Of a DNA stretch of 64,000 nucleotides, positions 9,470 through 44,879 are shown piece by piece; position 1 is the first letter of the stretch, and each line of letters begins with the position of its first letter. Below the pieces are notes generated by a model. That model saw only the letters and a list, made by a program, of their open reading frames with translations. It searched no databases and was not told where the DNA came from. The stretch is taken from assembly GCF_000217995.1 (NCBI RefSeq), contig NC_015676.1, forward strand, positions 186,001 through 250,000, in the 5' to 3' direction. The stretch is from Methanosalsum zhilinae DSM 4017 (lineage in GTDB: Archaea; Halobacteriota; Methanosarcinia; Methanosarcinales; Methanosarcinaceae). The position numbers and the translations under genes were made by a program.

Positions 9470-9473
9470 GAAT

Positions 9474-9596: not shown

Positions 9597-9638
9597 CAAA
9601 AATAGCAGGTTCGATGTCAATAGAATTCAGGTAAGCAG

Positions 9639-9813: not shown

Positions 9814-9843
9814 TTAGCTTTTACATATTAACTTTAAAGCTAA
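9814..9843. terminator. Second inverted repeat in the convergent gap
   Basis: TTAGCTTT (9814-9821) and AAAGCTAA (9836-9843) can pair as 8 bp with a 14-nt loop, next to a T-run on the plus strand. It lies 30 bp beyond the stop of the minus-strand kinase and could end transcripts from either side. Apart from these two hairpins the 277 bp after the small frame hold no visible gene. Confidence 0.35.
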
Positions 9844-9873
9844 CATAGTCTGACAGTTCAGATAATCAGTATC

Positions 9874-10455
9874 TCATTTAAAAAAATCTTCACTCCAGTC
9901 GATATTGCCTGGCCTGAAACCATCCAGATCATCTTCTTTTCCATTTTTGATGGCTTTTATAATGTGGTTTATATATTCTGCGATTTCTTCCGGTCTCATG
10001 TATGTGGTATTGACCTCAAAGACACTTTTGCAGTACTGTACGGATTCTGCCAGTATCACATCAAGTGCTTCTGCTTCCACATTCTCTTCGATCTTCTCAG
10101 GTGAATAGTTTCGTGTCTGCAACCTCTTTTTGAGAATATCTGGTGATGCACGAAGAACAATTACAGTATCTGTAATATAATGTGACATGTGACTTTCCAC
10201 TAAAACAGTTTCTCCACACTTTGTGTTCTCATCTATCAGCTCAATCAGGCTGTCGTGTATATGTTCGATATCTGCTATCAGGCAATCGCGTTTTGTATCA
10301 ACACCGCAGTGCAGTTCTTTTTCCTTTATCAGATCATTGAGGTTTATGATCCGATATCCAAAGGATGTACTGAGTATTCCTGAAACAGTAGTTTTGCCGG
10401 TACCAGGTGTACCTGTGATCCCAATCAGCATAATCTGATAAATGTCCTCATTCAC
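9874..10455 (-). CDS. Fap7/hCINAP-type adenylate kinase family protein
   Basis: P-loop kinase with Walker A GTPGTGKT at the very N-terminus and a short LID (LQTRNYSPEKIEENVEAE), the pattern of archaeal AK6/Fap7 proteins, which combine adenylate kinase activity with a role in small-subunit rRNA maturation. It is 193 residues from the ATG that overlaps the trpG stop (ATGA), or 185 from the inner ATG at 10431 just before LIGITGTPG. Its position as the last gene of the trp operon is translational coupling rather than an obvious functional link. Confidence 0.88.
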   Translation of the reverse strand: MNEDIYQIMLIGITGTPGTGKTTVSGILSTSFGYRIINLNDLIKEKELHCGVDTKRDCLIADIEHIHDSLIELIDENTKCGETVLVESHMSHYITDTVIVLRASPDILKKRLQTRNYSPEKIEENVEAEALDVILAESVQYCKSVFEVNTTYMRPEEIAEYINHIIKAIKNGKEDDLDGFRPGNIDWSEDFFK

Positions 10456-11044
10456 TTAATGGTTTTGACTGCCTTACAAGGTCCAAAAAATTTCTGATAA
10501 CTGTCATGCCATCAGGTGTGAGTATTGATTCAGGATGAAACTGCACTCCGTACACAGCATATTTTCTGTGGGCAATACCCATGATAATTCCATCTTCAGA
10601 ACGTGCAATTACCTCTATATCGGGAGCAAGGATTTCGATTGCAAGTGAATGATACCTGGCACTGATAAAAGGGTCCTGTATATCTTTGAACAGTGGCGAA
10701 CCATTATGATTTATTGTACATTCCTTCCCATGTACAGGACCTGCTTTAGAATGTCCGGTTCTGCCTCCAAATGCTGTATTTATTGCCTGATGACCAAGAC
10801 AGACCCCTAGAATGGGCATCCTGGCGGTAAAGTGCTCAATTATAGGGATACAGTTTCCTGTATCTTCAGGATTTTCAGGGCTTCCAGGTCCTGGTGAGAT
10901 CACTATAGCATCCGGTTGCATGGACTCTATATCTCTGATAGATACTGTATTTGAGACCACCACTGTCTCAGCATTCAATATTGAAAAATAATCCACCAGA
11001 TTCCAGACAAAAGAGTCCCTGTTGTTTATGAACAATACTTTCAT
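10448..11044 (-). CDS. trpG: Anthranilate synthase component II (glutamine amidotransferase)
   Basis: 198 residues, class I glutamine amidotransferase. The oxyanion strand VISPGPGSPENPEDTG, the nucleophile in GVCLGHQAI and the His-Glu pair in VQFHPESILTPDG are all present. It supplies ammonia to TrpE for anthranilate formation. It overlaps trpE by 4 nt (ATGA) upstream and the kinase gene downstream. Confidence 0.96.
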   Translation of the reverse strand: MKVLFINNRDSFVWNLVDYFSILNAETVVVSNTVSIRDIESMQPDAIVISPGPGSPENPEDTGNCIPIIEHFTARMPILGVCLGHQAINTAFGGRTGHSKAGPVHGKECTINHNGSPLFKDIQDPFISARYHSLAIEILAPDIEVIARSEDGIIMGIAHRKYAVYGVQFHPESILTPDGMTVIRNFLDLVRQSKPLSE

Positions 11045-22392: not shown

Positions 22393-23271
22393 TCAGTGTT
22401 TAACAAGAACCTTCAGCAGATCCCTGTCCTTCAGGATACCCAGGAGCTTCTGGTTTGCATTGACCACAGGCATCTGATCAATCCTGGCACGTTTCATTTT
22501 AAGTGCGCAGTCACTGACCTCTGAGATATAGGATGCTGTAATGGGCTCCTTGATCATAATATCCTTGACAACGATGTCCGGTACCTTTATTCTGGAAACA
22601 CTGTAGTAAATGCTCATTGTATCTCTCATCGATTCCCAGGTCCATTCATCGTCATCAGAACCTGCTGACATATCTGACATTTCCACACTGTCCTCTATTA
22701 TACTGGCATTGATCACATCCAGTTCAGAGATTATGCCTACAAGCTCCAGATCGGAATCCAGTATGGGTACAGCCTTTTTATGTGAGAGTTCCATGATCCT
22801 TGCAACAAGTGGAAGCGGAGTTTCACTCCAGACTGCAACAACACCATCATCAAGATATGGTCCGATCTGTTCTGTAATATCCAGATCTGCAATACTGGCA
22901 ATTATATCTGCAATGGTCACCATACCTGCCAGGTTTCCATCAGTTACGACTGGAAGTCTTCGAATATTGTTCTCAAGAAGCAGCTTGGCTGCATCAACAA
23001 TGTTTGCATCCGGGCTGACAGTAACCGGATCCCTTGTCATCAGCATTGCAATCTGCTCTTCTTCGGGGTTTTTCAGAAGATCGGTACGACTGACCACTCC
23101 TGTGACCTTACCCCCTTTAAGTATCGGGACACCTGATATTTTCTTGTCCTTGAGTATATTGAGAACTTCATCCCGTGATCCGGGAAGAGTTGCATATGCC
23201 ACGTCCTTTACCATTATATCCTGAATAATTGTACTCTTTGGCACGTTTTTCAGCCCCTGTATAATTTTCAT
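22393..23271 (-). CDS. Four-CBS-domain protein
   Basis: 292 residues. Four CBS motifs follow one another: residues ~15-68 (IMVKDVAYATLPGSRDEVL...GVVSRTDLL), 75-128 (LMTRDPVTVSPDANIVDAA...GMVTIADII), 135-190 (a diverged copy, VWSETPLPLVARIMEL...GIISELDVI) and 235-290 (IMIKEPITASYISEVSD...GILKDRDLL). Such modules bind adenine nucleotides or SAM and sense energy state; no effector domain is attached. The gene overlaps the upstream usp stop by 4 nt, so the two are co-translated. Confidence 0.88.
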   Translation of the reverse strand: MKIIQGLKNVPKSTIIQDIMVKDVAYATLPGSRDEVLNILKDKKISGVPILKGGKVTGVVSRTDLLKNPEEEQIAMLMTRDPVTVSPDANIVDAAKLLLENNIRRLPVVTDGNLAGMVTIADIIASIADLDITEQIGPYLDDGVVAVWSETPLPLVARIMELSHKKAVPILDSDLELVGIISELDVINASIIEDSVEMSDMSAGSDDDEWTWESMRDTMSIYYSVSRIKVPDIVVKDIMIKEPITASYISEVSDCALKMKRARIDQMPVVNANQKLLGILKDRDLLKVLVKH

Positions 23272-23723
23272 TCCTCTTTTTTGCCAGGTGTGCGTACCAC
23301 AAATACCGGTATATTGGAACTGCGTATCACCTTTTCTGTTACACTTCCCAGCAGGAACCTGTCCAGTCCGCTCTTGCCATGGGTTCCCATGATGATAACA
23401 TCAATATCGTTCTTATTGGCAAAATCTATAATCTCATGAGCAGGATGACCGTCCAGCATTACCTGCTCGACCTCGACTCCATTTTCTCCTGCAATATCCT
23501 CTATACTCTGAGTTGCTTTCCTGCCTTCTTCCTGCAGAAGTGAATACATCATTTCCCAGCCTGCGTCCATTGGAATGGATGCAAATGCTGCAGTGTCGAT
23601 TACATATACAGCATACAGTCTGGCACCGCTCAGCCGTGCAAGTTCCACACCATACTCTACCGTGTGCTCGCTATGCTCAGACCCATCGGTGGCAATCAAT
23701 ATCTTTCTGTAAATTTCACTCAT
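23268..23723 (-). CDS. Universal stress protein A family
   Basis: 151 residues, single Usp domain. The ATP-binding signature GTHGKSGLDRFLLGSVTEKVIR is complete, with the acidic IATDGSEHSEH at the start. It is a tandem duplicate of the gene at 24034 (most residues identical over the whole length) and the first gene of a unit with the CBS protein, which may read the same nucleotide signal. Confidence 0.93.
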   Translation of the reverse strand: MSEIYRKILIATDGSEHSEHTVEYGVELARLSGARLYAVYVIDTAAFASIPMDAGWEMMYSLLQEEGRKATQSIEDIAGENGVEVEQVMLDGHPAHEIIDFANKNDIDVIIMGTHGKSGLDRFLLGSVTEKVIRSSNIPVFVVRTPGKKEE

Positions 23724-24033: not shown

Positions 24034-24501
24034 TCATTCATTTTCCTGACCTGCCGGTGCAGGTACCACAAATACCGGAATTGTAGAACTGCGTATGACC
24101 TTTTCTGCCACACTGCCAAGAATGAATCGATTGAGTCCGCTTTTTCCATGGGTTCCCATGACGATGATATCAATGTCATTCTTACTGCTAAATTCTATTA
24201 TCTCATGGGCCGGATGTCCCTCAAGCAGTACCTGCTCAACATCTACTCCTGCCCTGTCTGCAATATTTTCTACATTCCGGGTTGCCTGCTTGCCTTCCTC
24301 CTTGAGAAGCGAATACATGGTCTCCCATCCGGCATCGCTTTCCATCGGGATGGATGCAAAATCAGCAGTATCTACAACATATGCTGCATACAGCTTTGAA
24401 CCACCAAGCCTTGCAAGTTCCACGCCGTATTTTATTGCATGTTCACTTAACTTTGAACCGTCTGTGGCAATCATTATTTTTCTGTAAATATCGCTTTCCA
24501 T
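24034..24501 (-). CDS. Universal stress protein A family (tandem copy)
   Basis: 155 residues, nearly the same sequence as the Usp at 23268, with signature GTHGKSGLNRFILGSVAEKVIR. Differences cluster at the N-terminus, in a short insertion (MESDAGW against MDAGW) and at the C-terminal tail (VPAPAGQENE). The pair can form homo- or heterodimers, as is usual in the family (inference). It follows the amidohydrolase gene by 14 bp. Confidence 0.93.
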   Translation of the reverse strand: MESDIYRKIMIATDGSKLSEHAIKYGVELARLGGSKLYAAYVVDTADFASIPMESDAGWETMYSLLKEEGKQATRNVENIADRAGVDVEQVLLEGHPAHEIIEFSSKNDIDIIVMGTHGKSGLNRFILGSVAEKVIRSSTIPVFVVPAPAGQENE

Positions 24502-25776: not shown

Positions 25777-28700
25777 ATGGATTTGTCAGGTTCATCGCAC
25801 ATTCCATGTGAAAATGAGATTATCAAGCATCTGTCCAGTATTTCAGACGGACGAATTCCAGATACCTTTTTTTGTTCCCTTCTGGATAGTGACAGCTTTC
25901 ATTCAGTGACACATAGTAACAGATTTCAAAACCTTCTGTTTGAAATATTCGGATCACTCTCAGCTGGTCCTCCGGTAAATTTTGACAGAATAAGAGCAGA
26001 GATCCCGGAGAATGATATGGTGGCTTCTGTCCAGAATGTAGATTCAGGGGTCGCAGTTGAACATACAGGTCACTGGAATGTACTCAGAAATAATGATGGA
26101 TGGGAACTGATCCGAATTTATACTGGAAGCAGTGATATAGTAGTTAGGTTTGAGGAGCTGGCATGTGATGTTCTGGAAGAATTCTGTGAAGAGTGCCGTG
26201 AGTTCAGGCTTATCATACTCAGAGGTATGGGGCCCAGGGTATTCATGGATCATGATAGGGCAATACTTTATGCTGATCTCTTGGCAATGGCTGATGAGAT
26301 ATATCTAAAATACTGTCTCAGGAGGGAACTCCATCTCTGGAAATATCCTTCCAGTAACCTGAAAGATGCAATAATGGATTCATTGAAATGGGTGAGGTCA
26401 ATAGGCAGGTCACTGGATATTTTCTTTGAAACACTGTCCATTGTATATGGAGTGGAGTGCAGTACCGGAAGCGATGATGATACAATAGCAGATTCCATCA
26501 TCTCCAGGTTTTACAGCCAGGGTACTGACAGAAAAATTGCAGGCAGAATCCACTATTGCCCGGATGAGACTGGCCAGCCATGGATTATAATGGATTCACA
26601 GGTCAGATATCCATTAAGCACCAAGATCCCTGATATAGATTGCCTGAACTCTGTCAGGAAATGGACCTCCCGGGGTCTTGATATTATCCATGAGATGATC
26701 CGGGCCAGATCACTTGGAGAAAATGTTTTGCTTATAGGTGATGCAGGTACAGGTAAGGACTGGCTTGCAATGATGTATGGCAGAATCATGGGAGAAGATC
26801 CCATTGTTGTGTCTCTGTCAGAGGATATGGAGGGCCAGGAGCTGATAGCCTCCAGAGGTCTGGAAGCAGGGCTGACGGTCTGGGAATACAGTCAGATCGT
26901 GAATGCCTATGTGAACGGCAGGATCATTATCCTGGATGAGGTAAACAAGACCAGGCCAGGTGTATGTGCAATCCTGAATGAAATAATGGAAGCTCCTGAG
27001 CTTGAGATGCCTGACGGCAGCTGGGTCAGCCGGTGTGAGGGTTTCCAGATCATTGCCACCATGAATGAGGCTGGAGAGGAATACGGGGGATATGATATTG
27101 ACCCGGATTTCCGGGACCGATTCGCAACCCTTATCCAGGTTGATGAACTGGATAAAAATCAGAGAATAGAATTTCTCAGGAAGGTATCCCATAGCATTGT
27201 ACCCCGCAAATTCATAGAGGATCTGATTTCCCTCCAGGACACTATCAATAACAGTGGCCAGGTATGGAGAAAGATGTCACTCAGGGTTCTGGAACGGATC
27301 ATAGAGGCCAGAAGAAGATATCCTGCAGAATCCCTTGCCTCACTCATAAGTTCTGAATATATGATCGGCAACTGGGAAAAAGGTCACGGTTTTGTTAACA
27401 GTGAGGTCCAGGGATTTGCTACAGATATGGAACGCAATTTCAGGTCATCAATTCTGTTTTCCTTCAGAAGGGGTCAGAATGTCAGGGACCCTTCGGGACA
27501 GAGGGAGTTGAGGGTGGTGCTTGTCGAGGGCAGGGTATGGCTCTGCTGTAAATGTCCAGACGGAATACAGGCTGAACCTCTTTCAGGTCCCATTCATCCT
27601 GTCAGTACAGTTAATGTCTCCACAGACCAGAATATGATACTTGCCATAGCAGGCAGTCAGATATGGGTCTGGTACACTGTGGACGGAGTTATATGGATCG
27701 CAGAGGGAATTGATCTCTCAGATCCTGCATCACCGCAATGTTCTGGTTCAACTACAGATCTCAGTAATCCAATAAATATCGGCTCTCAAACAGCATCAAC
27801 CCTGCCTGCTCCCATCCTGAAGAACAGTTCTCTGGTAAGTGGCAGTATCAGAATTCCTGCAGGCAATGAATCCGATGATTGTCCAGGTCCGGTATATGGA
27901 TATTATGAAAAGGAAACTCCTACTGGTAACAGAATTCTTCATCAGGTACTGCTGGGTCTGTCCATGGACCGCAATGTGCTGCTGGTGGGACCTGTGGGTA
28001 CAGGAAAGAGCTGGCTGAGCAAGGCTGTTTTCCGGATGCTTGAGAAGAAAGTGGAGCATATGTCACTGCATGAGGGTACCACTGTACAGGATCTTATGGT
28101 CTGGCAGAAGACGGTACGGGTGAAGGATGAACTCTCCCTTGAACTTGAACTCTCGCCTCTGGTACGGGCTGCTGTTGAGGGCAGGCCATGTATTGTGGAT
28201 GAGGTGAACAGGGCATCTGCGGGTGTGCTGGCAGTACTGAATCATATTCTGCAATTCAGGGAGGTCATTCTACCAAAAAGGATCCAGATAGATGGAAAGT
28301 TAACTGACAGGCTCCGGGTCAGGCAAGGGTTCAACCTGATAATGACAATGAACCCGCCCCAGCAGCACCTTGAGGTGAACCGGATGCTTGCTGATTTTAT
28401 GGACCGCATGTATTGTGTCCGGGTTGATCATCTGCCACCGGATGAGGAGCTTGGAATGCTTAAGATGATATGGGAACATGCAGGCGGCCTGGTGGATGGT
28501 TCTGTTGAAAGGGATCTGGAAATCCTTGTACGCATTGCTTCTGAGACCCGCAAGGAGGCTGAGGAGTATATAAGGCCCATCAGCACCAGGGCGCTTGAGA
28601 GAATGGTACACTTTAGACAGAAATACCCTGATCATCAATGGGCTGACATTCTGTGTATGATGACAGGTATTGAAGGTGCTGTGGATCAAAAAAGAAGACA

Positions 28701-31700
28701 GAGATTTTATGGATACTGGAATGATGGTAGTGGCTGCAGTCTGCCTCAATCCGGATCCTGTTCCATCAGTATCAGTGATGATTCAGAGGAAGCTGAAATA
28801 GGTGGCATAAGATGGGGCAGGAAGAATGCGGATATCTGTAGCAGGTACTTTGGTGGAATTGATCAGAATGATCGTATCATTGAGCTGATGACAAAAATGC
28901 GTGACATGGAGTCCCATGTGCTTCTTGTTGGAGAAGCGGGTACTGGCAAGGACTGGCTTGCCCTTGCCTATGGCGAGCTTATGGGTGAGGAACCTGTGGT
29001 GGTCTCACTGTCAGAGGAGGTGGAGGGCCAGGAACTGATCGCATCCAGAGGACTTGAGGAAGGGATCACGGTCTGGGAATACAGTCATATTGTAGAAGCC
29101 TATGAAAGGGGCGAGATTATAATTATTGATGAGGTGACCCGTACCAGACCGGGTGTTCGTGCAATTCTCAATGAGATCATGGAATCTCCTGAACTTGAAA
29201 TGCCTGATGGCAGGTGGGTCCAGAGGGGTGAGGGTTTCCAGATAATTGCTACCATGAATGAGGTTAAGGAAGGATATGAGGGCTATGAGCTTGGCGAGGA
29301 CTTTGAGGACAGGTTTGGTGCTATTATTGAGGTACAGGAACTGGCAAAGACTGAAAAGATGAATTTTTTAAGAAGAGTGGCCCAGGGAAGGCTGCCGGAT
29401 ACAACCCTGTCCCAGCTCATCGATTTTCAGGAAGAGGTGAATTCCAGCAGTGATGTATGGAGAAAACTGTCCCTCAGGGTCCTTGAGAGAATTGTTGAAA
29501 TGAAGACAGAGTATCCGGATGAGAGAATTGGTGATATTATACTCTCAGAGTTTATGATAGGGGAGTGGGAAAGTGGAAGAGGTACTGTTGAAAAGATGAT
29601 AGCAGCACTGCCTGAAGAGCTGGCAGGAAGAAGTGACTGGACAATTGGCAACAGTATTGAATATCCAGGATCACAGGCATTGGAAATGTCATTTTCTGAT
29701 GATGGCCATATTCTTGCTGTTCTGGACCGCTCGGGATCTGTATATGTATCCAGGATCCATCCTGGAAAACAGATGCAATGGCAGAAACTTGAAAGAGATT
29801 CTGATTATAAGGACTCTCTGATACTTTCTGGTAACGGGGACTTTATCGCAGTAAAAGGAGAGTACAGGGCTGCTGATATCTGGCAGAAATGTGGTGAATC
29901 CTGGAAGAGAGTAGATGTATCCATGGAACACGCAGGAAGAATTTCAGGGATATATCCTGCCTATGATGGACGCTGTTTTTTTGTAGTTACTTACAGGGGA
30001 GCGGTACTTGTATGGACCAGGGATGAACACGCAAACTTTGAAGGAGAGGGTGTACTGCTAAAGGAAGAGGGTACCAGGATCAGATTTGGTTCTCTTGCGG
30101 GAGACAGTGAGGTGTTTGCTGCAGGAGATGATGAGGGTACTGTCAGAGTCTGGTACAGGTCCAGAGAAGGTGACTTTTCAGCAGATTATATGGAATCAGC
30201 CAGACCAGGGGATGTCATGACAGCAGGCAGCTGGTCACCGGATTTACAGGTTCTTGCATGTGCAGGACTTTCAGGCAATGTATATGTGATGTATAGAAAA
30301 AAAGATTGCAGCCATGGTGAATGGAAGCGACTGGAGGGGCCAGGACAGGATATGGTGTTCTGCTCATGGTCTGGAAATGGTGATTATCTTATTGCAGGTG
30401 GTGGCAGGGGAGAGATTTTCCTCTGGTGCAGGTATGATCTGGTCAATATCCCTGGAAAGAGACTTGAAGGGCCTTCAGGGGATCTCACACAGTGTACCCG
30501 GTCTGCAGATTCATCAACCATTGCAGCCACCGGCCATGATTATAAGGTCTATTTATGGGGTGTAAAATCAGGATCCTGTGAAGTTGTTGCCAGTGAACTT
30601 AAAGTATCTGATAACCTGCAGAGAATGCAGAGGATATGGCTGTCTGAAAACGGGCAGTATCTTATAGGACACTCCATGAATGGGGGCATCTATATGTGGT
30701 CCAGGTCGGTTCACAGTGGCTGGAGACCTGAGTACAGCAGATTGTCCTGTGCAGGTGAATGCAGTGAATTCCTGAGCTGTGAATACTTGAAAGAGCATGT
30801 TTTTGCAGCAGATGAGAGTGGTGGTCTGTACCAGTGGACACTTCCTTCCCGGGGTCTAGATGTTCTGGAATCTGCTCTGGAAAACGCTGAACAGGAGAGT
30901 CTTGCTCCGGAGATTGGTAATGACCTGCTGGTTAGTGGCAGTGTGAGCCTTGAGAGAGAATCCAGAGAACAGGATGATAAAGCTACATTTGATTATTTAT
31001 CAAAACAAACTCCTTCAAATGACCGGACCCTGCACAGGATCATGATGGGACTTGCACTGAATCGCAATATTCTTCTGGTGGGTCCTGTGGGATCAGGTAA
31101 GAGCTGGATTGCCAAGTCAGTTTTCGGTTTGCTCAACAAGAGGATTGAGCACATGTCCCTGCACGAGGGTTCTACAGAGCTTGATCTTACTGCCTGGCAG
31201 AAAACTGAGAGACGGGGTCGGGATATATCCCTGGAGATGGAAATCTCACCTCTTGTAAGAGCTGCTATAGATGGCAGACCCTGTGTAATTGAGGGGGTTA
31301 ATCGAATCTCCTCAGGTGTTCTGGCAGTGCTCAACCATGCCCTGCAGTTTAAGGAGATAATTCTTCCAAAGCGTATCAGGATAGGTTCTGAAATGACTGA
31401 TACCATAAAGGCAGAAGAGGGATTCCAGCTGGTTATGACCGCCATTCCTCCTGGAGGCCTTGTGGATGTAAATCCTTTCATGGCGGATTTTATGGACCGA
31501 ATGTTCACAGTTGAGGTTGATTACCTGCCACCATCAGAGGAGGCAGGGCTGCTGGAAGGTATCTGGCACAATGAAAGTAATGAACAGGTTGATCCCGGGA
31601 CAGGCAGAATGATCAGGGAGCTTGTGGAAATGGCTGATCGCAGACGCAGGCTTGCCCGCCAGAACTTCAGGCGTACCATTACCACAAGGACACTTGAGAG

Positions 31701-34700
31701 GGTTATCAGGTTCAGACAGAAATATCCTGGAATCCACTGGATGGACATACTTGGCATGATGTGCGGTGTTGAGGGTGCTGTGGACCAGGAGCAGATAAGG
31801 GTGTGGAAGATCGGATGGGAGGCAAAGTTTGGAGAGCAGGATCAGCTGCTCCCTGCACCGTTGATCGTCCTGCACAGTGACAGAAACAGGGTGACCATAG
31901 GTGATCTTACCTGGCAGCGAATGGATACTGATGTAGAGTGCAGATATATTGAGGGAATTGATCAGAATGACCGTATCATTGAGCTGATGGCAAAGATGCG
32001 TGACATGCAGTCCCATGTGCTTCTTGTTGGAGAAGCGGGTACAGGCAAGGACTGGCTTGCCCTTGCCTATGGCGAGCTCATGGGTGAGGAACCTGTGGTG
32101 GTTTCACTGTCAGAGGAGGTGGAGGGGCAGGACCTGATAGCAATGAGAGGCTTAAGAGCAGGCATTACTGTCTGGGAATACAGTCATATTGTGGATGCTT
32201 ATGAGAATGGCAGGATCGTTATTCTGGATGAGGTGACCCGTGCAAGACCAGGAGTTCGTGCAATTCTCAATGAGATCATGGAAGCTGAAAGGCTTGAGAT
32301 GCCTGACGGCAGGTGGATCCAGAGGGCGGAGGGTTTCCAGATCATTGCCACCATGAATGAGGTCAAGGAAGGATATGAGGGCTATGAGCTTGGCGAGGAT
32401 TTTGAGGACAGGTTCGGTGCTATTGTTGAGGTACAGGAACTTCCGGAATCTGAGAAGAGAAAGTTTCTTGAACGGGTTTCCAGGGACAGGGTTAACAGTG
32501 GAATACTGGACTCTCTTTTAAAGCTTCAGGAAACTGTGAATTCAGAGGAGACTGTATGGCGGAGAATGTCCCAGAGAGTACTGGAGCGGATTGTGGAAGA
32601 TATTGCCAGATATCCTGATGAACCGCCTGAAGACATTATTCATTCTGAATTCATGCTGGGTGAATGGGAGGAGGGGTACGGATATGTTGTGGATGCAGTA
32701 GAATCAATGGTTTGCAGTCTCGGGAATGTACGGGTTAATGGTAATAAATCTAAAAAACCGTCTCCTGTATACATAGATGACCTGCTGGTCAGCGGAGATG
32801 TCCGGCTGAAGGTGGGCAGTGAGCCTGATACCTGCCCTGACCCTGAATATGAATATCATGATAAACAGACCCCTTCCAATGATCGTGTTCTGCACAGGAT
32901 ACTGCTGGGCATTTCAATGAACCGCAATGTGCTCCTGATAGGGCCTTCAGGATGCGGAAAGAGCTGGATGACCCGGGCTGTGTTCAGGCTTTTGAGAACC
33001 AAGATTGAACATATGTCTCTGCATGAGGCAACAACAGTACAGGATCTGACTGTCTGGCAGAAGACTGTGAGAAGAAAGGGTGAGATGTTTATAGAACTTG
33101 AACTATCGCCTCTGGTACGGGCTGCTGTTGAGGGCAGGCCGTGTGTTGTGGATGATGTGAACAGGGCATCTCCCGGCGTGCTGGCAGTTCTCAACCATGC
33201 CCTGCAGTTTAAGGAGATTGTGCTTCCCAGAGGGATTGAGGTATCAGATGCTGGTATTCCTTCAGGAAGGGATGTGCGCAAAATCAGGGCAAAGGAAGGA
33301 TTCCAGCTGATAATGACTGCAAATGTACCGGAGGATGGCAGTGGTGTGAACCAGATGATGGCTGATTTTATGGATCGGATGTATTCTGTTGACATGCATT
33401 ATCTGCCACAGTGTGAGGAAACGGATCTCATGATGGCAATCCTGGGTTTTGAGGACAGAAATATGCGCAATGAACTTGAGCTTCTGGTTGATTTTGTGAA
33501 TTATCTTAGAGAAAGTGGTGAAGGTCCCACTTTCAGGAGCATGGAGAGAATTGTAGAAAACCTGAGGACCTATCCATACCAGGATATCAGGTTGCTTCTT
33601 GAACGTGAACTGAGAATCGGGTTCAGGTCTGAGGAGGAACAGGAGATGTTTACAGAGTTTATGGAATCATGTAATCTGGATAGGGCTCTCAGGTCTGTGT
33701 ATGAAAATCCAGTATCTGGCTGTACATGGAATGAGCTTATCTATCACGCTTTTGATATTTCACTACCAGTGTCCATGGATGACCTGAATTCATATGATCC
33801 TGCAAGATGGTGGGAAGCAGGAGATCCTGATGATTATCAGCAGGCAAGGGCAAGGAAGAGGTACAGGATACTTGTGAAACTGCTGCACATGGTCACAGGA
33901 CTTGATATTTCCCTGAATCCCTGGTCAAAGGCCAGGGTTTTAGATAAAGATAAGCCTTCATGGGGTTGTGTTTTTGATCGACGGTCCAGGATGGTGAAGG
34001 AGGTATTTTTCTCACCATGGGATATTATTTACAGGGAAGATGAGCAGAGTCTGTACGGACTGCTGTTCCATGAGATATTTGAGATACTCTACCGCAGGCC
34101 GGCTGCATTTGATGAAGAGTTTCTATCAAAACCTGGTGCCAATGCTCTTATCAATGGTATAGGTGATATCTGGATAAATCGCAGGGGTATGAGTGAGTTT
34201 CCTGGAACCAGAAAATGGATAATGGCACTCTACAGGCAGAGTATGGATTCAGGAGAATATCCTGCTCTGGCCTATCTCCAGTTCATTTCTGCAGTTGTGT
34301 ATGAATGGATATTCCAGGAGAGGGATCCCAGGGTAGCTGACAGGGATGTTATCAATGCACTTGATTCTCTGAGGGAGACTTTTGAGAGAATATACAGTAC
34401 AGACAGTGAAGATGAATATATCAGCCTGATTCACCGGCTTTACAGTTGCAGGGATTTCCAGTACCTTGTAGAGAAATCGGTTGAGGAGAAGGTCAGAATG
34501 CAGGGAATTGATCTCTGGGCCGGTGACTGGAAGATGGCTGGAGGTGTCAGAGAGGATCTTTTAAGGAGTGCAGCTGCCGGAATGGTTGAGCAGGAGAGGA
34601 CAGGTGGTAAAGCTGTGGATGAGAATGGAAGACAGCTCAACCAGAAGGAACTTGAGGAGCTTCGCAGGGCTTTGCTGGAATCTGTGAGGGCAGCCAGGGA

Positions 34701-35562
34701 AGAGCTTGAGCGCCTTGACGAGGAGAGGGAACAGGAACGTGTGGAGGCTGAACTTAAGAGGGCTGAGATTGCAAGGGAGGAGAGGGAACTTGAAGGAATC
34801 TCTGAGAAGGAGCAGCAGGAGTATTCTCTAAGATATGAGAAGGTTTCGGAACATATCAAGCAGATGAGGGAGAGATTCAGGGAGATATACAGGCATGAGA
34901 GGGGTGTTTGGAAGCGCCGACTGTCCAGGGGCAGACTTGACAGTACACAGCTTGCGTCCCTTGTTGCAGGAGATGACCGGGTGTTCATGAAACGGGAACA
35001 GCCTGAGAGGTATATGGTCCGGATTTCTCTGCTGGTGGATCAGAGTGCCAGCATGCAGGGTGAGAAGATCGATCATGTGGCTGATGCTGTCCTGATGCTG
35101 CTGGCTGCTATACAGAGGGATCAGAGAAAGGGAGTTCAGGTGGAGGTTGTGGGATTTCATGATGACAGTCCAATGGAGATATATCTTAAGTATGGTGAGA
35201 AGATCACCAAGAAAAAGATTATCAGGGTTGTCAATCAGGTGGCAGGGACAATGGGTCGAAACAATGACCTGCAGGCAATATACTATGCCTTTGAGAGGAT
35301 CCCTTCTGCAAGTAAAAGGGCCCTGAACCTTATCATCCACTTCTCTGATGGTGATCCCAACCAGCAGTTCGATCGTGACCAGTTCAGGGATCTTATTAAC
35401 AGAAATCCCCATATCAACGTCGTTGGGTTTGGGATTGGAGGTGAGGGTGCTGATTTTGTACTGGACCTGTATCCTGAGGGCCAGGCAGCAACTGCTGATA
35501 ATGCTTCTGAGATACCTGAGAAGCTCAGCTCACTCATACAGGGATATGTGAGAAGACGCTGA
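25777..35562 (+). CDS. Giant midasin-like protein: six AAA+ modules, WD40-type insert, metallopeptidase-like segment, VWA
   Basis: 3261 residues in one uninterrupted frame. Order: unique N-terminus (1-290); AAA1 (Walker A Lys327, Walker B D387-E388); short beta insert (~560-650); AAA2 (K744, D808-E809); AAA3 (K1058, D1118-E1119); about nine WD40-type repeats (1288-1691); AAA4 (K1775, Walker B changed to E1839-G1840); AAA5 (K2091, D2151-E2152); AAA6 (K2395, D2459-D2460); a region with HEIFE (H2765) and GDIWIN (D2797); charged coiled coil (~2950-3045); VWA domain with MIDAS D3088-x-S-x-S and FSDGD. AAA1, 3 and 5 are one family (GTGKDW, EGQ[ED]LIA, NEIME); AAA2, 4 and 6 another (GKSW, SLHE, SPLVRAA, VLNH). 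Six AAA+ units plus a C-terminal VWA is the midasin plan, and MoxR-VWA pairs do similar remodelling in prokaryotes. No signal peptide, so it should be cytoplasmic. Function and client unknown. Confidence 0.9.
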   Translation: MDLSGSSHIPCENEIIKHLSSISDGRIPDTFFCSLLDSDSFHSVTHSNRFQNLLFEIFGSLSAGPPVNFDRIRAEIPENDMVASVQNVDSGVAVEHTGHWNVLRNNDGWELIRIYTGSSDIVVRFEELACDVLEEFCEECREFRLIILRGMGPRVFMDHDRAILYADLLAMADEIYLKYCLRRELHLWKYPSSNLKDAIMDSLKWVRSIGRSLDIFFETLSIVYGVECSTGSDDDTIADSIISRFYSQGTDRKIAGRIHYCPDETGQPWIIMDSQVRYPLSTKIPDIDCLNSVRKWTSRGLDIIHEMIRARSLGENVLLIGDAGTGKDWLAMMYGRIMGEDPIVVSLSEDMEGQELIASRGLEAGLTVWEYSQIVNAYVNGRIIILDEVNKTRPGVCAILNEIMEAPELEMPDGSWVSRCEGFQIIATMNEAGEEYGGYDIDPDFRDRFATLIQVDELDKNQRIEFLRKVSHSIVPRKFIEDLISLQDTINNSGQVWRKMSLRVLERIIEARRRYPAESLASLISSEYMIGNWEKGHGFVNSEVQGFATDMERNFRSSILFSFRRGQNVRDPSGQRELRVVLVEGRVWLCCKCPDGIQAEPLSGPIHPVSTVNVSTDQNMILAIAGSQIWVWYTVDGVIWIAEGIDLSDPASPQCSGSTTDLSNPINIGSQTASTLPAPILKNSSLVSGSIRIPAGNESDDCPGPVYGYYEKETPTGNRILHQVLLGLSMDRNVLLVGPVGTGKSWLSKAVFRMLEKKVEHMSLHEGTTVQDLMVWQKTVRVKDELSLELELSPLVRAAVEGRPCIVDEVNRASAGVLAVLNHILQFREVILPKRIQIDGKLTDRLRVRQGFNLIMTMNPPQQHLEVNRMLADFMDRMYCVRVDHLPPDEELGMLKMIWEHAGGLVDGSVERDLEILVRIASETRKEAEEYIRPISTRALERMVHFRQKYPDHQWADILCMMTGIEGAVDQKRRQRFYGYWNDGSGCSLPQSGSCSISISDDSEEAEIGGIRWGRKNADICSRYFGGIDQNDRIIELMTKMRDMESHVLLVGEAGTGKDWLALAYGELMGEEPVVVSLSEEVEGQELIASRGLEEGITVWEYSHIVEAYERGEIIIIDEVTRTRPGVRAILNEIMESPELEMPDGRWVQRGEGFQIIATMNEVKEGYEGYELGEDFEDRFGAIIEVQELAKTEKMNFLRRVAQGRLPDTTLSQLIDFQEEVNSSSDVWRKLSLRVLERIVEMKTEYPDERIGDIILSEFMIGEWESGRGTVEKMIAALPEELAGRSDWTIGNSIEYPGSQALEMSFSDDGHILAVLDRSGSVYVSRIHPGKQMQWQKLERDSDYKDSLILSGNGDFIAVKGEYRAADIWQKCGESWKRVDVSMEHAGRISGIYPAYDGRCFFVVTYRGAVLVWTRDEHANFEGEGVLLKEEGTRIRFGSLAGDSEVFAAGDDEGTVRVWYRSREGDFSADYMESARPGDVMTAGSWSPDLQVLACAGLSGNVYVMYRKKDCSHGEWKRLEGPGQDMVFCSWSGNGDYLIAGGGRGEIFLWCRYDLVNIPGKRLEGPSGDLTQCTRSADSSTIAATGHDYKVYLWGVKSGSCEVVASELKVSDNLQRMQRIWLSENGQYLIGHSMNGGIYMWSRSVHSGWRPEYSRLSCAGECSEFLSCEYLKEHVFAADESGGLYQWTLPSRGLDVLESALENAEQESLAPEIGNDLLVSGSVSLERESREQDDKATFDYLSKQTPSNDRTLHRIMMGLALNRNILLVGPVGSGKSWIAKSVFGLLNKRIEHMSLHEGSTELDLTAWQKTERRGRDISLEMEISPLVRAAIDGRPCVIEGVNRISSGVLAVLNHALQFKEIILPKRIRIGSEMTDTIKAEEGFQLVMTAIPPGGLVDVNPFMADFMDRMFTVEVDYLPPSEEAGLLEGIWHNESNEQVDPGTGRMIRELVEMADRRRRLARQNFRRTITTRTLERVIRFRQKYPGIHWMDILGMMCGVEGAVDQEQIRVWKIGWEAKFGEQDQLLPAPLIVLHSDRNRVTIGDLTWQRMDTDVECRYIEGIDQNDRIIELMAKMRDMQSHVLLVGEAGTGKDWLALAYGELMGEEPVVVSLSEEVEGQDLIAMRGLRAGITVWEYSHIVDAYENGRIVILDEVTRARPGVRAILNEIMEAERLEMPDGRWIQRAEGFQIIATMNEVKEGYEGYELGEDFEDRFGAIVEVQELPESEKRKFLERVSRDRVNSGILDSLLKLQETVNSEETVWRRMSQRVLERIVEDIARYPDEPPEDIIHSEFMLGEWEEGYGYVVDAVESMVCSLGNVRVNGNKSKKPSPVYIDDLLVSGDVRLKVGSEPDTCPDPEYEYHDKQTPSNDRVLHRILLGISMNRNVLLIGPSGCGKSWMTRAVFRLLRTKIEHMSLHEATTVQDLTVWQKTVRRKGEMFIELELSPLVRAAVEGRPCVVDDVNRASPGVLAVLNHALQFKEIVLPRGIEVSDAGIPSGRDVRKIRAKEGFQLIMTANVPEDGSGVNQMMADFMDRMYSVDMHYLPQCEETDLMMAILGFEDRNMRNELELLVDFVNYLRESGEGPTFRSMERIVENLRTYPYQDIRLLLERELRIGFRSEEEQEMFTEFMESCNLDRALRSVYENPVSGCTWNELIYHAFDISLPVSMDDLNSYDPARWWEAGDPDDYQQARARKRYRILVKLLHMVTGLDISLNPWSKARVLDKDKPSWGCVFDRRSRMVKEVFFSPWDIIYREDEQSLYGLLFHEIFEILYRRPAAFDEEFLSKPGANALINGIGDIWINRRGMSEFPGTRKWIMALYRQSMDSGEYPALAYLQFISAVVYEWIFQERDPRVADRDVINALDSLRETFERIYSTDSEDEYISLIHRLYSCRDFQYLVEKSVEEKVRMQGIDLWAGDWKMAGGVREDLLRSAAAGMVEQERTGGKAVDENGRQLNQKELEELRRALLESVRAAREELERLDEEREQERVEAELKRAEIAREERELEGISEKEQQEYSLRYEKVSEHIKQMRERFREIYRHERGVWKRRLSRGRLDSTQLASLVAGDDRVFMKREQPERYMVRISLLVDQSASMQGEKIDHVADAVLMLLAAIQRDQRKGVQVEVVGFHDDSPMEIYLKYGEKITKKKIIRVVNQVAGTMGRNNDLQAIYYAFERIPSASKRALNLIIHFSDGDPNQQFDRDQFRDLINRNPHINVVGFGIGGEGADFVLDLYPEGQAATADNASEIPEKLSSLIQGYVRRR

Positions 35563-37386: not shown

Positions 37387-39867
37387 ATGAAAAAAATAGC
37401 AATTACGCTGGTTGCCCTGATGCTCATGTCACTGTTTGTGGCTGGCTTTGCCAACGCAGACAATGACTATCTTGAAGAACTTGAGATCAGGGGACCCGCC
37501 TGGAATTTAACAGGCGCAGATGCAAATGAAATATTCGTCGCGAATGCAACTAATTTTGCTGGCTTCTGGTATGATATCGATGATGATGAATCCAGTGAAG
37601 AACTCTGGATATATAAGAACAGAACTACAGCCAGAACTCTGGGTGATGACCCAAGTGCTGTAGAATATATATCCACTGTAGTCCCAGGAATAAAACCTGA
37701 ATTTGATTTCAGGGATCCTGACAACGCATCTGAATTATTTACATATGAAAAAATCGGATTCCTTGCAGAGGAATATGTTCCAATTGCACAGGGACAGACC
37801 GACAAGCTATCAAAACTTTTGATGGACTCTGATACAAGGTACACTCTGCGTACAGGTCAGACACTGGAACTTGCAGATGGCTATGCAATCACACCACTGC
37901 AGATCGATGTAGATGGTAACAAGGTCTGGCTTGAATTGACAAAAGACGGTGAATTCCTTGATGATAAGATCATTGATGTAAGGTCAGCTACAGGTGCTCA
38001 GGCAAGTCAGGCCAAACAGGACCGTACCTGGTACTATGAACAGGACATAATGGATGAGGATGATATTCTCACACTGATGGTTCATGTAGAACAGGTCTTC
38101 CAGGGTACTGTTGACAGTCTTGTTGTAATTGAGGGTATCTGGCAGATCGAAGATGATGGTCTTGAACTTGAAACAGGTGACAGATTCGGTAGAATGGAAA
38201 TTGATGATGTTGGTGACAATGTAATAAGAATGGCACTTGATACAACCATCACACTCAGACGTGACAGTACCCAGCACCTTATGCAGGATCTGTACTTTAG
38301 AGTCGCAGACGATGCTGCCAACATTAGATTCTACCTGATGCAGCGTATCACAGAGCCTGGTACCTATGAGGTCAGAGGAACAGTTGCAAATGTAACTGCA
38401 ACAGAATGGTTCAACTGGACTGCAACTGGATTTGATGTTGCGGGTCTGGAAGGTATGGTGACTGAAGGTTATTCATTTGCTGGTTTCTGGTATGATCTGG
38501 ATGAAGATCTGCATTCAGAACTTCTGGCAGTTCATGTCGATGACAGAACCCTCCGTGCAGATGATGATGAAGTGGTCTACTATTCCAGAATACAGGAAGG
38601 TCTGGACCCTGAATTTGATTTCAGAGACCCTGACAACGCAACTGAACCGTTCAAATATGAGAAAATCGGATTCCTTGCAGATGAATATGTTCCAATTATT
38701 CCAGGACAGACCGACAAGCTATCAAAACTTTTGATGGATTCTGATACAAGGTACACTCTGCGTACAGGTCAGACACTGGAACTTGCAGATGGCTATGCAA
38801 TTACACCACTTCAGATTGATGTAGATGGTAACAAGGTCTGGCTTGAACTTACCAAAGACGGTGATTTCCTTGATGATAAGATCATTGATGTAAGGTCAGC
38901 TACAGGTGCTCAGGCAAGTCAGGCCAAACAGGACCGTACATGGTACTATGAACAGGACATAATGGATGAAGATGATGTTCTCACACTGATAGTTCATGTA
39001 GAACAGGTCTTCCAGGGTACTATTGACAGCCTTGTTGTGATCGAAGGTATCTGGCAGATTGAGGACGATGGTCTTGAACTTGAAACAGGTGATAGATTCG
39101 GTAGAATGGAAGTTGATGCTGTTGGTGACGATGAAATCAGAATGACACTGGATTCCAACATCAACCTGAGAAGAGACAGCACCCAGCATGTAATGGGCAA
39201 CATCTACTTCAAGGTTGCAGATTCTCCTGACATCAGATTCTACCCATTCGTGGAGAGAACTGTAGGCGAACCGGTAGTACCTGTTGACGAAGAACCAGTT
39301 GCAGCATTTACTGCAAATCCAACAAGAGGTGTTGCACCACTGACTGTAACCTTCACTGACCAGTCAGAGTATGCAGTGAACTATCTCTGGGACTTTGGAG
39401 ATGGTACAACCTCAACTGATCCAAGCCCAACCCATACCTATGAGGAAATTGGTACATACACTGTCACACTGACAGTTACCAATGATGTAGGCGAGGACAG
39501 TGCAGAGAGGACAATCACAGTTACTGAGGAAGAGATCCTTGAACCTGTAGCTGCCTTTACAGCACAGCCACAGGAAGGAGAAGCTCCACTTACTGTGACC
39601 TTCACTGACCAGTCTGAGCATGCAGTAAGCTACCAGTGGGACTTTGGTGATGGTACAACCTCAACCGATGCAAGCCCAACCCATACCTATGAAGAGGCAG
39701 GCGAGTACACTGTCACACTGACCGTTGAGAACGAGATCGGTGAAACAGATTCTGCACAGAGGACAATCACAGTCCAGGAGCCAGAACCAACACCCGGCTT
39801 TGAGATCGTGTTTGCCATTGCAGGAATTCTGGCAGTTGCCTTCCTTGTGAAAAGGTACAGAAAATAA
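37387..39867 (+). CDS. S-layer protein 1: tandem S-layer domains, two PKD domains, PGF-CTERM
   Basis: 826 residues. Signal peptide ([20 protein letters not shown]...A, cleavage near residue 24); two copies of the Methanosarcinales S-layer domain (about 30-330 and 335-635), each with [10 protein letters not shown]- or [10 protein letters not shown]-like, [12 protein letters not shown] or KIGFLADEYVPI, and VEQVFQGT motifs; two PKD domains (~640-720 and 722-800, WDFGDGTTSTD); and a tail TPGFEIVFAIAGILAVAFL followed by KRYRK, a PGF-CTERM sorting signal for archaeosortase and lipid attachment (family knowledge). It forms or decorates the surface lattice. AT-rich leader and strong terminators frame it as a monocistronic unit. 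Confidence 0.94.
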   Translation: MKKIAITLVALMLMSLFVAGFANADNDYLEELEIRGPAWNLTGADANEIFVANATNFAGFWYDIDDDESSEELWIYKNRTTARTLGDDPSAVEYISTVVPGIKPEFDFRDPDNASELFTYEKIGFLAEEYVPIAQGQTDKLSKLLMDSDTRYTLRTGQTLELADGYAITPLQIDVDGNKVWLELTKDGEFLDDKIIDVRSATGAQASQAKQDRTWYYEQDIMDEDDILTLMVHVEQVFQGTVDSLVVIEGIWQIEDDGLELETGDRFGRMEIDDVGDNVIRMALDTTITLRRDSTQHLMQDLYFRVADDAANIRFYLMQRITEPGTYEVRGTVANVTATEWFNWTATGFDVAGLEGMVTEGYSFAGFWYDLDEDLHSELLAVHVDDRTLRADDDEVVYYSRIQEGLDPEFDFRDPDNATEPFKYEKIGFLADEYVPIIPGQTDKLSKLLMDSDTRYTLRTGQTLELADGYAITPLQIDVDGNKVWLELTKDGDFLDDKIIDVRSATGAQASQAKQDRTWYYEQDIMDEDDVLTLIVHVEQVFQGTIDSLVVIEGIWQIEDDGLELETGDRFGRMEVDAVGDDEIRMTLDSNINLRRDSTQHVMGNIYFKVADSPDIRFYPFVERTVGEPVVPVDEEPVAAFTANPTRGVAPLTVTFTDQSEYAVNYLWDFGDGTTSTDPSPTHTYEEIGTYTVTLTVTNDVGEDSAERTITVTEEEILEPVAAFTAQPQEGEAPLTVTFTDQSEHAVSYQWDFGDGTTSTDASPTHTYEEAGEYTVTLTVENEIGETDSAQRTITVQEPEPTPGFEIVFAIAGILAVAFLVKRYRK

Positions 39868-41487: not shown

Positions 41488-44160
41488 ATGAGAAAATTAG
41501 CAATCACACTGGTTGCCCTGATGCTCATGTCACTGTTTGCAGTCGGCGCCGCCACAGCAAACAACGACGATTACGTCGACGAACTTGAGATCAGAGGACC
41601 GGTATGGGACTTTACATTAACTATAGAAGAAGTTGATGCTCCAAACAACAATACAACTTTGAAAACATTTGGTGATTGGAGAGATCTTAAAATAGATTCG
41701 GACACATTCAATACTAGTGCAAATTTTAATGTCTCCGGTGAACTGTTTTCAGGAACTGAGTTAGATGCAGCGCAAGTGGAAAATAATGTGACAAACATGA
41801 CACTTGTCGCAGATGCACAGAACTTCGCTGGCTTTTGGTATGATATAGATGATGGTCTTTCCAGTGAGACTCTGACACTTTATGTCAACAAAACTAGCGG
41901 TGACAGGACACTTGATGATGACGACTCAGATGTTCTTGTCTATGAATCAAATGTACAGGGTGTAAATGCTACATTTGAATTTAATGGGAATGTATACCAA
42001 TATCCAAAAATTGGATTCCTTGCAGAAGAATATGTACCTGTTGAGTCAGATGGACCCCTTGTAGAATATGATGGACAAGGTGTCTTCGGTGATGTAGACA
42101 AACTGAGCAGACTTCTCATGGACACTGATGACAGCTGGACTCTCAGAGTTGGTGAGACTCTGGATCTTGAAGATGGCTACGCCATTGAACCACAGCAGAT
42201 TGATGTTGAAGGTGATAAGGTATGGCTTGAACTCACAAAAGATGGAGAGTACGTTGATGATGAAATCATTGATGTAAGTGATAGCAACGACACTACCTGG
42301 TTCTATGATCAGACAGTACTTGACGAAGATGATGTCGTTACACTTGCAATAAGTGTAGATCAGGTCTTCCAGGGAACTGTTGACAGTCTTGTTGTCATTG
42401 AGGGTGTATGGCAGATTGCTGATGATGGTCTAGAAATTGAAACTGATGACACATTTGGAAACATGGCAATTGAATCTACATCTGATGCCCAAATAATAAT
42501 GGAACTTGACTCTTCCATAACACTTAGACATGATACTACAAGAAATGTCATGGAAGATCTCAAGTTCAGAATGGCTGATGACAGTGATGTCCTCAGATTT
42601 TATCTGATGCAGGAAGTCACAGAACCTGGAATTCATGAGGTAAGAGGTACTGTAGTTGACTTAGAGAAAGATGGTGGCTACTATCAAGATGCTGTAAGCT
42701 GGACTGCAACTGGATTTGATGTTCCAGACCTTGAGGAAGGTGTAGCTCCTGAAGGATTCTCATTTGCAGGATTCTATTACGACCTTGATGACAACCTGCA
42801 CTCAGAAATGCTTACAATAGTTGAAGTTGAACGGTCACTGAGTGACACAAGCGCAAGCGATAATCCTGGCATTGAATATTACAGCCAGCCACAGATAGTA
42901 GAATCAACTTTTGACTTTGATGGTGAAGAGCGCTACTATCCAAAGATCGGATTCCTTGCAGAGGAATACGTGCCTGTTTCAGATGAACTGCTGACAACTG
43001 AAGAAGCTGAACTGGAAGGAACATCTGTAGACAAACTGAGCAAACTGCTCATGGACACAGATGACAGCTGGACTCTCAGAGTCGGTCAGACACTGGACCT
43101 TGAAGATGGCTATGCCATAACACCACAGCAGATTGATGTTGACGGTGACAAGGTCTGGCTTGAACTGACCAAGGACGGTGAATATGTTGATGATCAGATA
43201 ATTGAGGTTGGAGATGAATCCACCTGGTTCTATGATCAGACAGTCCTTGATGAGGAAGATGTTACAACACTTGCAATAGATGTTGATCAGGTCTTCCAGG
43301 GAACTGTTGACAGCCTTGTAGTAATTGAAGGTGCCTGGCAGATTGCAGACGATGGTATGGAACTTGAAACAGACGACGCATTCGGCAAGATGGTAGTAGA
43401 GAGTGCAGATGACAATATTGTAATGACACTTGACACATCACTCACACTCAGAGCCGACAGCACACAGCATCTGATGGGCGACATCTACTTTAGAGTCTCT
43501 GATTATTCAGACTTTGAAACAGATGCAAGATTCTACCCATTCGTTGAGAGAACAGTCGGCGAACCTGTGGAGCCTGTTGAGGAAGAGCCTGTAGCATCCT
43601 TTACAGCAAACCCAACAAGTGGTGCTGCACCACTGGAAGTGGCATTCACTGATCAGTCAGAATATGCAGTTGACTACAGCTGGGACTTTGGAGACGGTGA
43701 GACCTCAACCGAGGCAAGTCCAACCCATACCTATGAAGAAATTGGTACCTACACTGTCACACTGACAGTTTCCAATGAAATAGGTGAGGATACTGCAGAG
43801 ACCACAATCTCAGTCACAGAGGAAGAGATCCTTCCACCGGTAGCTGCCTTTGATGCACAGCCACTGGAAGGAGAAGTTCCACTGACTGTGACATTCACTG
43901 ATCAGTCAGAGAATGCAGTAGCCTATGAATGGGACTTTGGAGATGGCACAACCTCAACCGATGCAACTCCAACCCATACCTATGAAGAGGCAGGCGAGTA
44001 CACTGTTACACTGACCGTTGAAAACGAACTCGGTGAGACAGATACTGCCCAGACCACCATCACTGCAACTGAACCAGAGCCAACACCAGGCTTTGAAGCA
44101 ATCTTTGCAATTGCAGGAATTCTGGCAGTCGCCTTCCTTGCAAGAAGGTACAGAAAATAA
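41488..44160 (+). CDS. S-layer protein 2: tandem S-layer domains, two PKD domains, PGF-CTERM
   Basis: 890 residues. Same plan as protein 1: signal peptide ending near residue 25, two S-layer domains (~30-385 and ~390-695, each with [12 protein letters not shown] and the VDQVFQGT strand), two PKD domains (WDFGDGETSTE and WDFGDGTTSTD), and the tail [20 protein letters not shown] plus RRYRK. It is larger mainly by an insertion of ~40 residues early in domain 1 (TIEEVDAPNNNTTLKTFGDW). Strongly acidic. CGGAGGAAAA precedes the ATG. Confidence 0.94.
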   Translation: MRKLAITLVALMLMSLFAVGAATANNDDYVDELEIRGPVWDFTLTIEEVDAPNNNTTLKTFGDWRDLKIDSDTFNTSANFNVSGELFSGTELDAAQVENNVTNMTLVADAQNFAGFWYDIDDGLSSETLTLYVNKTSGDRTLDDDDSDVLVYESNVQGVNATFEFNGNVYQYPKIGFLAEEYVPVESDGPLVEYDGQGVFGDVDKLSRLLMDTDDSWTLRVGETLDLEDGYAIEPQQIDVEGDKVWLELTKDGEYVDDEIIDVSDSNDTTWFYDQTVLDEDDVVTLAISVDQVFQGTVDSLVVIEGVWQIADDGLEIETDDTFGNMAIESTSDAQIIMELDSSITLRHDTTRNVMEDLKFRMADDSDVLRFYLMQEVTEPGIHEVRGTVVDLEKDGGYYQDAVSWTATGFDVPDLEEGVAPEGFSFAGFYYDLDDNLHSEMLTIVEVERSLSDTSASDNPGIEYYSQPQIVESTFDFDGEERYYPKIGFLAEEYVPVSDELLTTEEAELEGTSVDKLSKLLMDTDDSWTLRVGQTLDLEDGYAITPQQIDVDGDKVWLELTKDGEYVDDQIIEVGDESTWFYDQTVLDEEDVTTLAIDVDQVFQGTVDSLVVIEGAWQIADDGMELETDDAFGKMVVESADDNIVMTLDTSLTLRADSTQHLMGDIYFRVSDYSDFETDARFYPFVERTVGEPVEPVEEEPVASFTANPTSGAAPLEVAFTDQSEYAVDYSWDFGDGETSTEASPTHTYEEIGTYTVTLTVSNEIGEDTAETTISVTEEEILPPVAAFDAQPLEGEVPLTVTFTDQSENAVAYEWDFGDGTTSTDATPTHTYEEAGEYTVTLTVENELGETDTAQTTITATEPEPTPGFEAIFAIAGILAVAFLARRYRK

Positions 44161-44744: not shown

Positions 44745-44879
44745 CCCGAAAAATATTGCCAGGATTTATGATTGCACCACAGTGTGCAACAGATCATATT
44801 TTTCATCTCACCAAAACCACACACACAACAACAAAACAAAAAACGAAACTATTCCCACAAAAAAAGGAGGATAAAAAAT

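Follow-up and report, generated by a model that had tools for sequence, protein, structure and literature searches.

The methanogenic archaeon Methanosalsum zhilinae DSM 4017 encodes, within the stretch of 64,000 nucleotides analysed here (the window; NC_015676.1, positions 186,001 to 250,000 of a genome of 2,138,444 bases), a giant protein of 3,261 amino acids in which six AAA modules of two different kinds alternate along a single chain. The gene is one uninterrupted open reading frame (ORF; 25777-35562, + strand, window coordinates as throughout), and its product has six Pfam AAA_5 matches, together with a propeller of WD40 type and a VWA domain. We consider it likely that the giant is a MoxR-class AAA+ remodelling machine, with an (A-B)x3 ring in one chain, a fused VWA partner bearing a metal ion-dependent adhesion site (MIDAS) and an inserted propeller; it is best classed with the MoxR/VWA proteins, its layout recalling midasin but its origin probably being separate. 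The excerpts of PMC4047620 and PMC6286127 present AAA rings of six modules in one chain as an unusual arrangement particular to dynein and midasin, and a literature search returned no prokaryotic single chain with six AAA modules among the matches listed.

The odd modules, A1 (26632-27456), A2 (28825-29649) and A3 (31924-32748), and the even modules, B1 (27883-28749), B2 (30976-31842) and B3 (32836-33600), all lie on the + strand, with AAA_5 starts at approximately 26722, 27973, 28915, 31066, 32014 and 32926 (from a scan of the organism's own genome, converted from genome to window coordinates). The alternation of the two kinds is real and strong. Pairwise identity was 57.6-75.7% among A modules and 53.0-56.2% among B modules, against 27.4-35.0% between A and B, and a second Methanosalsum species, whose intact homologue of 3,311 amino acids is 54% identical overall, gave 54-69%, 51-54% and 27-33% respectively. 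Local alignment scores in the window protein lay 98-143 standard deviations above those of shuffled sequence for A-A and B-B pairs and 27-43 above for A-B pairs (30 shuffles each). The homologue of a third Methanosalsum species, approximately 90% identical and split over two contigs, was consistent with the six-module pattern. In a tree of 12 modules from the first two species, A1-A3 separated from B1-B3 with support of 100/100, as the initial annotation had predicted, whilst the opposing topology, with neighbouring modules paired, was 410 log units worse and rejected by the approximately unbiased (AU) test (p 2e-5). A topology in which species instead of position united the modules within each class was 280 log units worse. 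The A and B clades each had support of 100 in all five larger sets (27 to 33 tips), with A and B as sister groups at 78-91 in these sets and the constraint not rejected (AU 0.56); the two kinds may therefore be sister branches instead of the two different families named in the initial annotation.

Most of the motifs on which the alternation had been proposed were found in every module of their class: GTGKDW, SLSE..EGQ, NEIME...LEMPDG and QIIATMNE in all three odd modules, and GKSW, EHMSLHE, VLAVLNH and an LVSG lead-in in all three even ones. Two further even-module motifs, LSPLVRAA and the lead-in (K)xTPSNDR, hold in two of three modules each, B2 reading ISPLVRAA and B1 reading KETPTGNR. The connectors recur as well: each A module is followed by SEFMIGEWE or SEYMIGNWE (or a near form), each B module is preceded by LVSG, and both the B1-A2 and the B2-A3 gap contain EGAVDQ...RYxxGIDQNDRII. 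This repetition of connectors along with modules suggests that the unit copied was most likely the A-B pair, and together they agree with the earlier proposal that such a pair is present three times.

The nucleotide-binding sites differ between the classes. All nine A modules of the three species carry a GTGKD Walker A motif, with Asp in place of Ser/Thr, a DE Walker B motif, a sensor 1 Asn and the arginine of a DRF motif; in the window the P-loops read GDAGTGKD in A1 (26737-26760; Walker B DEV from 26935) and GEAGTGKD in A2 (28930-28953) and A3 (32029-32052). B1 alone is canonical at all three motifs, with GKS in Walker A (27988-28011), DEV in Walker B (from 28198) and N at sensor 1, in both the window and the second species, the B1 of the third species being cut by a contig end and left out of the comparison. 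B2 is degenerate in all three species, with IEG at Walker B (E-G at 31291-31296) and TAI in place of the sensor 1 Asn, and B3 is altered, with DD at Walker B (33151-33156) in all three, a sensor 1 that is TAT in the second species and TAN in the other two, and a shorter lid that merges into the C-terminal part. These signatures would most naturally be read as those of a ring with unequal sites.

The ratio of non-synonymous to synonymous substitution rates (dN/dS) between the window and the third species was 0.135 (2,517 codons) and 0.21 (772 codons), indicating clear purifying selection. The VWA domain had the lowest value of 11 regions (0.034), followed by A2 (0.050) and A3 (0.076), whilst the A1-B1 connector (0.34), the N-terminus (0.23) and the propeller (0.23) were least constrained; the value for B1 was based on just 50 codons. 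For B2 the ratio was 0.117, so this dead-looking module is preserved as well.

Between and around the modules, the N-terminal region (amino acids 1-285, 25777-26631) had no Pfam match at E<=1. The A1-B1 connector (27457-27882), which looks beta-rich by eye and ends in the LVSG lead-in (27832), was likewise without a Pfam match; a propeller remnant suspected there by eye was rejected, since all that BLAST found in common with the propeller segment was a 16-residue stretch of the LVSG lead-in (E 0.25-0.73) plus a chance-level piece. The propeller itself is inserted between A2 and B2 (29659-30921, approximate limits; best Pfam propeller/WD40 match 1.4e-16), and the corresponding stretch of the second species has matches too. 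C-terminal to B3 lie a middle region (33601-35013) that aligns with the pre-VWA parts of stand-alone VWA partner proteins, a segment GRLDSTQLASLVAGDDRVFMKREQP directly preceding the VWA fold (34930-35004), aligned with the corresponding stretch of those partners and in which we presume a resemblance to CobT, and the VWA domain (35014-35559; PF00092, amino acids 3084-3223, E 5.5e-12 to 2.8e-10), with the MIDAS motif DQSAS at 35038-35052.

The C-terminal 661 amino acids matched VWA proteins in seven of 294 genomes of the phylum, besides the two giants; against NCBIfam this part gave no match at E <= 0.01 and against the PDB nothing notable, the top one of 6 rows having E 0.69, and the VWA domain also weakly matched the CobT_C and CoxE models. 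Alignment with four stand-alone VWA proteins covered the VWA domain plus an upstream HExxH region, HEIGH or HELGH in the stand-alone partners and HEIFE (34069-34083) in the giant; HEIFE is probably a dead metallopeptidase-like site retained in the fusion. An AAA gene adjoins the stand-alone VWA gene in three of the four neighbourhoods fetched, the contig of the fourth stopping within the next gene. From this homology and the AAA genes beside the partners, the end of the giant looks like a fused MoxR-partner-type VWA protein. The archaeal gene pairs (L022; L019-L021) have VWA proteins that align with the giant's C-terminus, but consist of two genes with one or two AAA modules, in contrast to the fused, six-module giant.

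Features of the MoxR class are present in the form of an AAA_5 domain with MoxR relatives and a VWA partner linked to the AAA part, here by fusion. The giant resembles NorQ-NorD and CbbQ-CbbO in combining a MoxR-type AAA protein with a VWA partner. In the NorQD complex, as far as the excerpt of PMC13036017 describes it, a hexamer of one protein works with a separate partner, whilst the giant is one chain with two module types and a fused partner. In the same complex the VWA protein inserts a finger into the AAA pore and contacts the ring through its C-terminus, an arrangement adopted by analogy as a working model for the VWA end of the giant. Dynein heavy chain likewise concatenates six AAA+ modules with unequal sites, but lacks a VWA domain. 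A structure model of B1-A2, of low confidence (mean predicted local distance difference test score, pLDDT, 51), had dynein and NorQ as top Foldseek matches, with Rea1 at rank 23; a hairpin stands at the expected place of the helix-2 insert in this low-confidence model only. Rings of the (A-B)3 type with unlike sites are familiar from RuvBL1/2, Pex1/Pex6, Yta10/12 and F1-ATPase, which are built from separate subunits rather than from a single chain.

We propose that the giant probably works like NorQD or midasin. The six modules would close into one pseudo-threefold ring, each module supplying the arginine finger that completes its neighbour's site. ATP hydrolysis would be uneven and centred on B1, where alone Walker A, Walker B and sensor 1 are all intact, whilst the three A sites, with their GKD Walker A but intact Walker B and sensor 1, may bind nucleotide with altered or no hydrolysis, B2 would be a structural pseudo-site and B3 a slow one. 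The C-terminal VWA domain may dock on the ring pore, its MIDAS holding an acidic residue of the target, so that ATP-driven movement of the ring would pull or twist the target, as proposed for NorQD and midasin, with the propeller perhaps helping in target choice. Several points weigh against this proposal. Structure modelling gave the ring no backing, with a mean pLDDT of 39 for the C-terminal part and 51 for B1-A2; Asp in Walker A could still support hydrolysis, such that B1 might not be the only hydrolysing site; a 12-module assembly could form from two chains instead; and the gene neighbourhoods gave no clue to the target, the neighbouring genes differing in strand and the flanking genes being non-adjacent in other genera.

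The best PDB sequence match of the giant was midasin (4e-26), a eukaryotic motor of ribosome biogenesis with Rsa4/Ytm1 UBL clients, followed by NorQ (6e-8). The initial annotation had argued for an independent origin on the grounds that neither midasin nor dynein was known to alternate. For dynein this stands as far as the excerpt of PMC4047620 goes, which has the small subdomains of AAA1, 3, 4 and 5 clustering and those of AAA2 and 6 diverged, which does not suggest alternation. For midasin it was not borne out: in the excerpts of PMC6286127, an H2-alpha bundle is restricted to AAA2, AAA4 and AAA6 of Rea1 (AAA1 and AAA6 being without Walker B), and a tree forced to pair neighbouring midasin modules was rejected by the AU test (0.0026), although not by the Shimodaira-Hasegawa (SH) test (0.086). 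Alternation as a property unique to the Methanosalsum giant was thus rejected. The midasin trees were built on HMMER-printed pieces of midasin modules from two yeasts, the 12 Methanosalsum modules and further AAA proteins, over 152-159 columns (partial pieces, inserts left out, the single model LG+G4), and the constrained trees came from a fast search. The even midasin modules clustered at 92.6/85 in the 28-tip tree, support for this grouping being 97 without the archaeal HEAT-AAA modules described below and 61-72 with them, and formed no clade in the set restricted to S. cerevisiae. Forcing A and B onto the odd and even modules of midasin was rejected in either direction (AU 0.0013 and 0.0021; SH 0.021 and 0.033), such that the two alternations look independent: midasin and the giant both alternate, apparently not through shared descent of the alternation. 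An independent origin is hence favoured by the tree tests, though not by the argument originally offered for it.

That the giant is instead an archaeal midasin orthologue, the same ancient six-module protein for ribosome or ribonucleoprotein assembly, is a very improbable alternative. Midasin is its best solved match, and both proteins have six AAA modules in one chain, alternating types, some inactive sites and a C-terminal MIDAS VWA domain in the same order; however, the tests of A/B against odd/even modules reject orthology, A2 alone matched best to yeast AAA1 and B1 alone to AAA3, AAA5 and AAA1, and a six-module profile (P-loop half) matched best to the even AAA2 and AAA4, with no correspondence of A to odd and B to even. 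Midasin also has a linker of approximately 1,700 amino acids and a D/E-rich stretch, whilst the giant has only approximately 470 amino acids, partly Glu/Arg-rich and helical-looking, between B3 and the VWA domain, and the yeast midasins exceed it by approximately 1,500 residues; the H2-alpha inserts of the even modules have as their counterpart even modules only 4 amino acids longer than the odd ones at that place; the midasin ring chain is without a propeller and its module phylogeny differs; and the giant is archaeal and restricted in our sample to one genus (3 of 79 relatives). We conclude that the giant is no midasin orthologue and probably had a separate origin. Less remote is a chaperone for cofactor or metal insertion, NorQD-, CobST- or GvpN-like, serving one Methanosalsum enzyme or structure. 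We regard this as possible but clearly the less favoured reading: five of the six modules matched the NCBIfam GvpN model weakly, but far below its cut-off (best module 40.7 against 266.8 bits), and set against the weak CobT_C and CoxE matches of the VWA domain and the degenerate HExxH kept in the partner-type middle region is the finding that no client gene was recognised among 10 neighbouring ORFs.

Two further explanations appear unlikely. The giant could be a conflict or defence machine, a fused form of the MoxR-vWA-beta-propeller ternary systems, as all three parts occur in it and the bpMoxR model PF20030 matched (whole-protein E 3.3e-12, best stretch in B1). In those systems, however, according to the excerpt of PMC7159879, the propeller follows the VWA domain and there is a third, variable component, whilst the giant's propeller lies between A2 and B2, no third component was recognised among the 10 neighbouring ORFs scanned, no effector was seen, the second species has the same neighbours, and the 11 PADLOC hits were short P-loop or partial matches. 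It is similarly doubtful that the ring is a mostly inert scaffold, with A sites that do not bind nucleotide and a protein acting mainly as a VWA/propeller platform. GKD in three Walker A motifs and the alteration of Walker B in two modules would suit a scaffold, but all nine A modules retain Walker B, sensor 1 and the DRF arginine, and A2 and A3 are the most constrained regions after the VWA domain.

The history of the modules is overlain by homogenisation of A2 and A3. At fourfold-degenerate sites A2 and A3 agreed at 53 of 76 positions in the window and 49 of 67 in the second species, whereas orthologues of the two species agreed at 0.30 (A2, n = 71) and 0.29 (A3, n = 69), codon usage alone predicting 0.28-0.34. 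The A-versus-B control was slightly above the codon-usage expectation (114/311 and 97/254 in the window and second species), and a weaker excess was seen for all A-A pairs (109/194 and 91/180) and all B-B pairs (97/194 and 65/149). This pattern indicates that, once the two species had separated, A2 and A3 were homogenised within each of them, gene conversion being the simplest explanation; modules of a single protein have here undergone concerted evolution in nature. In a core tree the window A2 joined the window A3 (98.8/97), whilst in a full-module tree the A3 orthologues of the two species joined (92/77), a patchiness that matches what partial conversion would give, and uniting A2 with A3 within each species was not rejected (AU 0.19). 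Two of the three orders of the B modules fitted equally well (AU 0.58 and 0.62) and the third was rejected (0.0087). Because A2 and A3 were homogenised in each species, the tree does not show how many amplifications took place or in what sequence, and it can neither back nor reject the proposal that the pair had been amplified twice.

A six-module query matched in three of 79 relatives, all Methanosalsum, and an A-module profile found the same three genomes among 237 of the class, with the giant absent from the other 234. An A1-B1-A2 query matched in three of 294 genomes of the phylum, the third match being a 405-amino acid single MoxR. Bacteria were covered by one contig scan with short peptide patterns plus plasmids and phages, from which absence from bacteria does not follow. 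A viral home was rejected after four scans of viral contigs (one with three loci, each an ORF of 368-486 amino acids with a single matching AAA, three with none), as was a plasmid or phage home, none of eight plasmid and 13 phage records covering 80% of the query. The C-terminal query matched 27 Acinetobacter plasmid records, the 15 listed being 26.6% identical over 26% of the query. On a Thiomicrorhabdus plasmid (L041:7854-10023), an AAA protein followed by a DUF3150 gene is a single-module relative of the A modules.

The gene order amidohydrolase - giant - KaiC-like - S-layer is shared with the second species and is compatible with the single outer neighbour on each of the two contigs of the third. 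In the family sample, own genus included, the amidohydrolase gene was present in 50 of 50 genomes and the KaiC-like gene in 29 of 50. Both occurred in 26 genomes of other genera and on one contig in 12, where they were approximately 0.5 Mb or more apart, so that no empty site was demonstrable in these 12.

A lead on how midasin itself arose comes from an archaeal two-gene system in which a HEAT-AAA-AAA protein lies beside a VWA protein with HExxH (L019:4554-8369 and 8359-10884, - strand; also L020, L021 and L068-L074). The HEAT-AAA-AAA part was found in seven of 294 phylum genomes, all of one genus. This protein carries a pair of AAA_5 modules plus a lid of midasin type (PF17867, 2.9e-13 in L019), its second module stopping shortly past the arginine finger. 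Both modules tend to place with those of midasin, and module 2 comes closest to the even ones, with weak support; the grouping of module 2 with even midasin modules had support of 59-79 in three of the four sets holding it and was absent in one, and placing the archaeal modules outside the six-module midasin clade, or together, was not rejected (AU 0.20 and 0.28). We tentatively suggest that concatenated alternating rings arose at least twice from MoxR/VWA systems by tripling of an unlike pair, once in Methanosalsum and once towards midasin, and that HEAT-AAA-AAA proteins (L019, L020) may preserve the two-module, three-copy state behind the odd-even pairs of midasin. A prokaryotic ring that has a VWA domain of its own, alternates between two module types and has lost active sites by degrees would add to the midasin layout a second and apparently independent example, and would allow experiments on why rings become single chains, alternate and switch off sites.

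Downstream of the giant lie three S-layer (PF07752) genes with PGF-CTERM anchors (37387-39867, 41488-44160 and 44772-46958), with two counterparts seen in the second species' stretch. Elsewhere in the window, two adjoining universal stress protein genes (23268-23723 and 24034-24501, - strand) lie beside a gene for a protein with four CBS domains.

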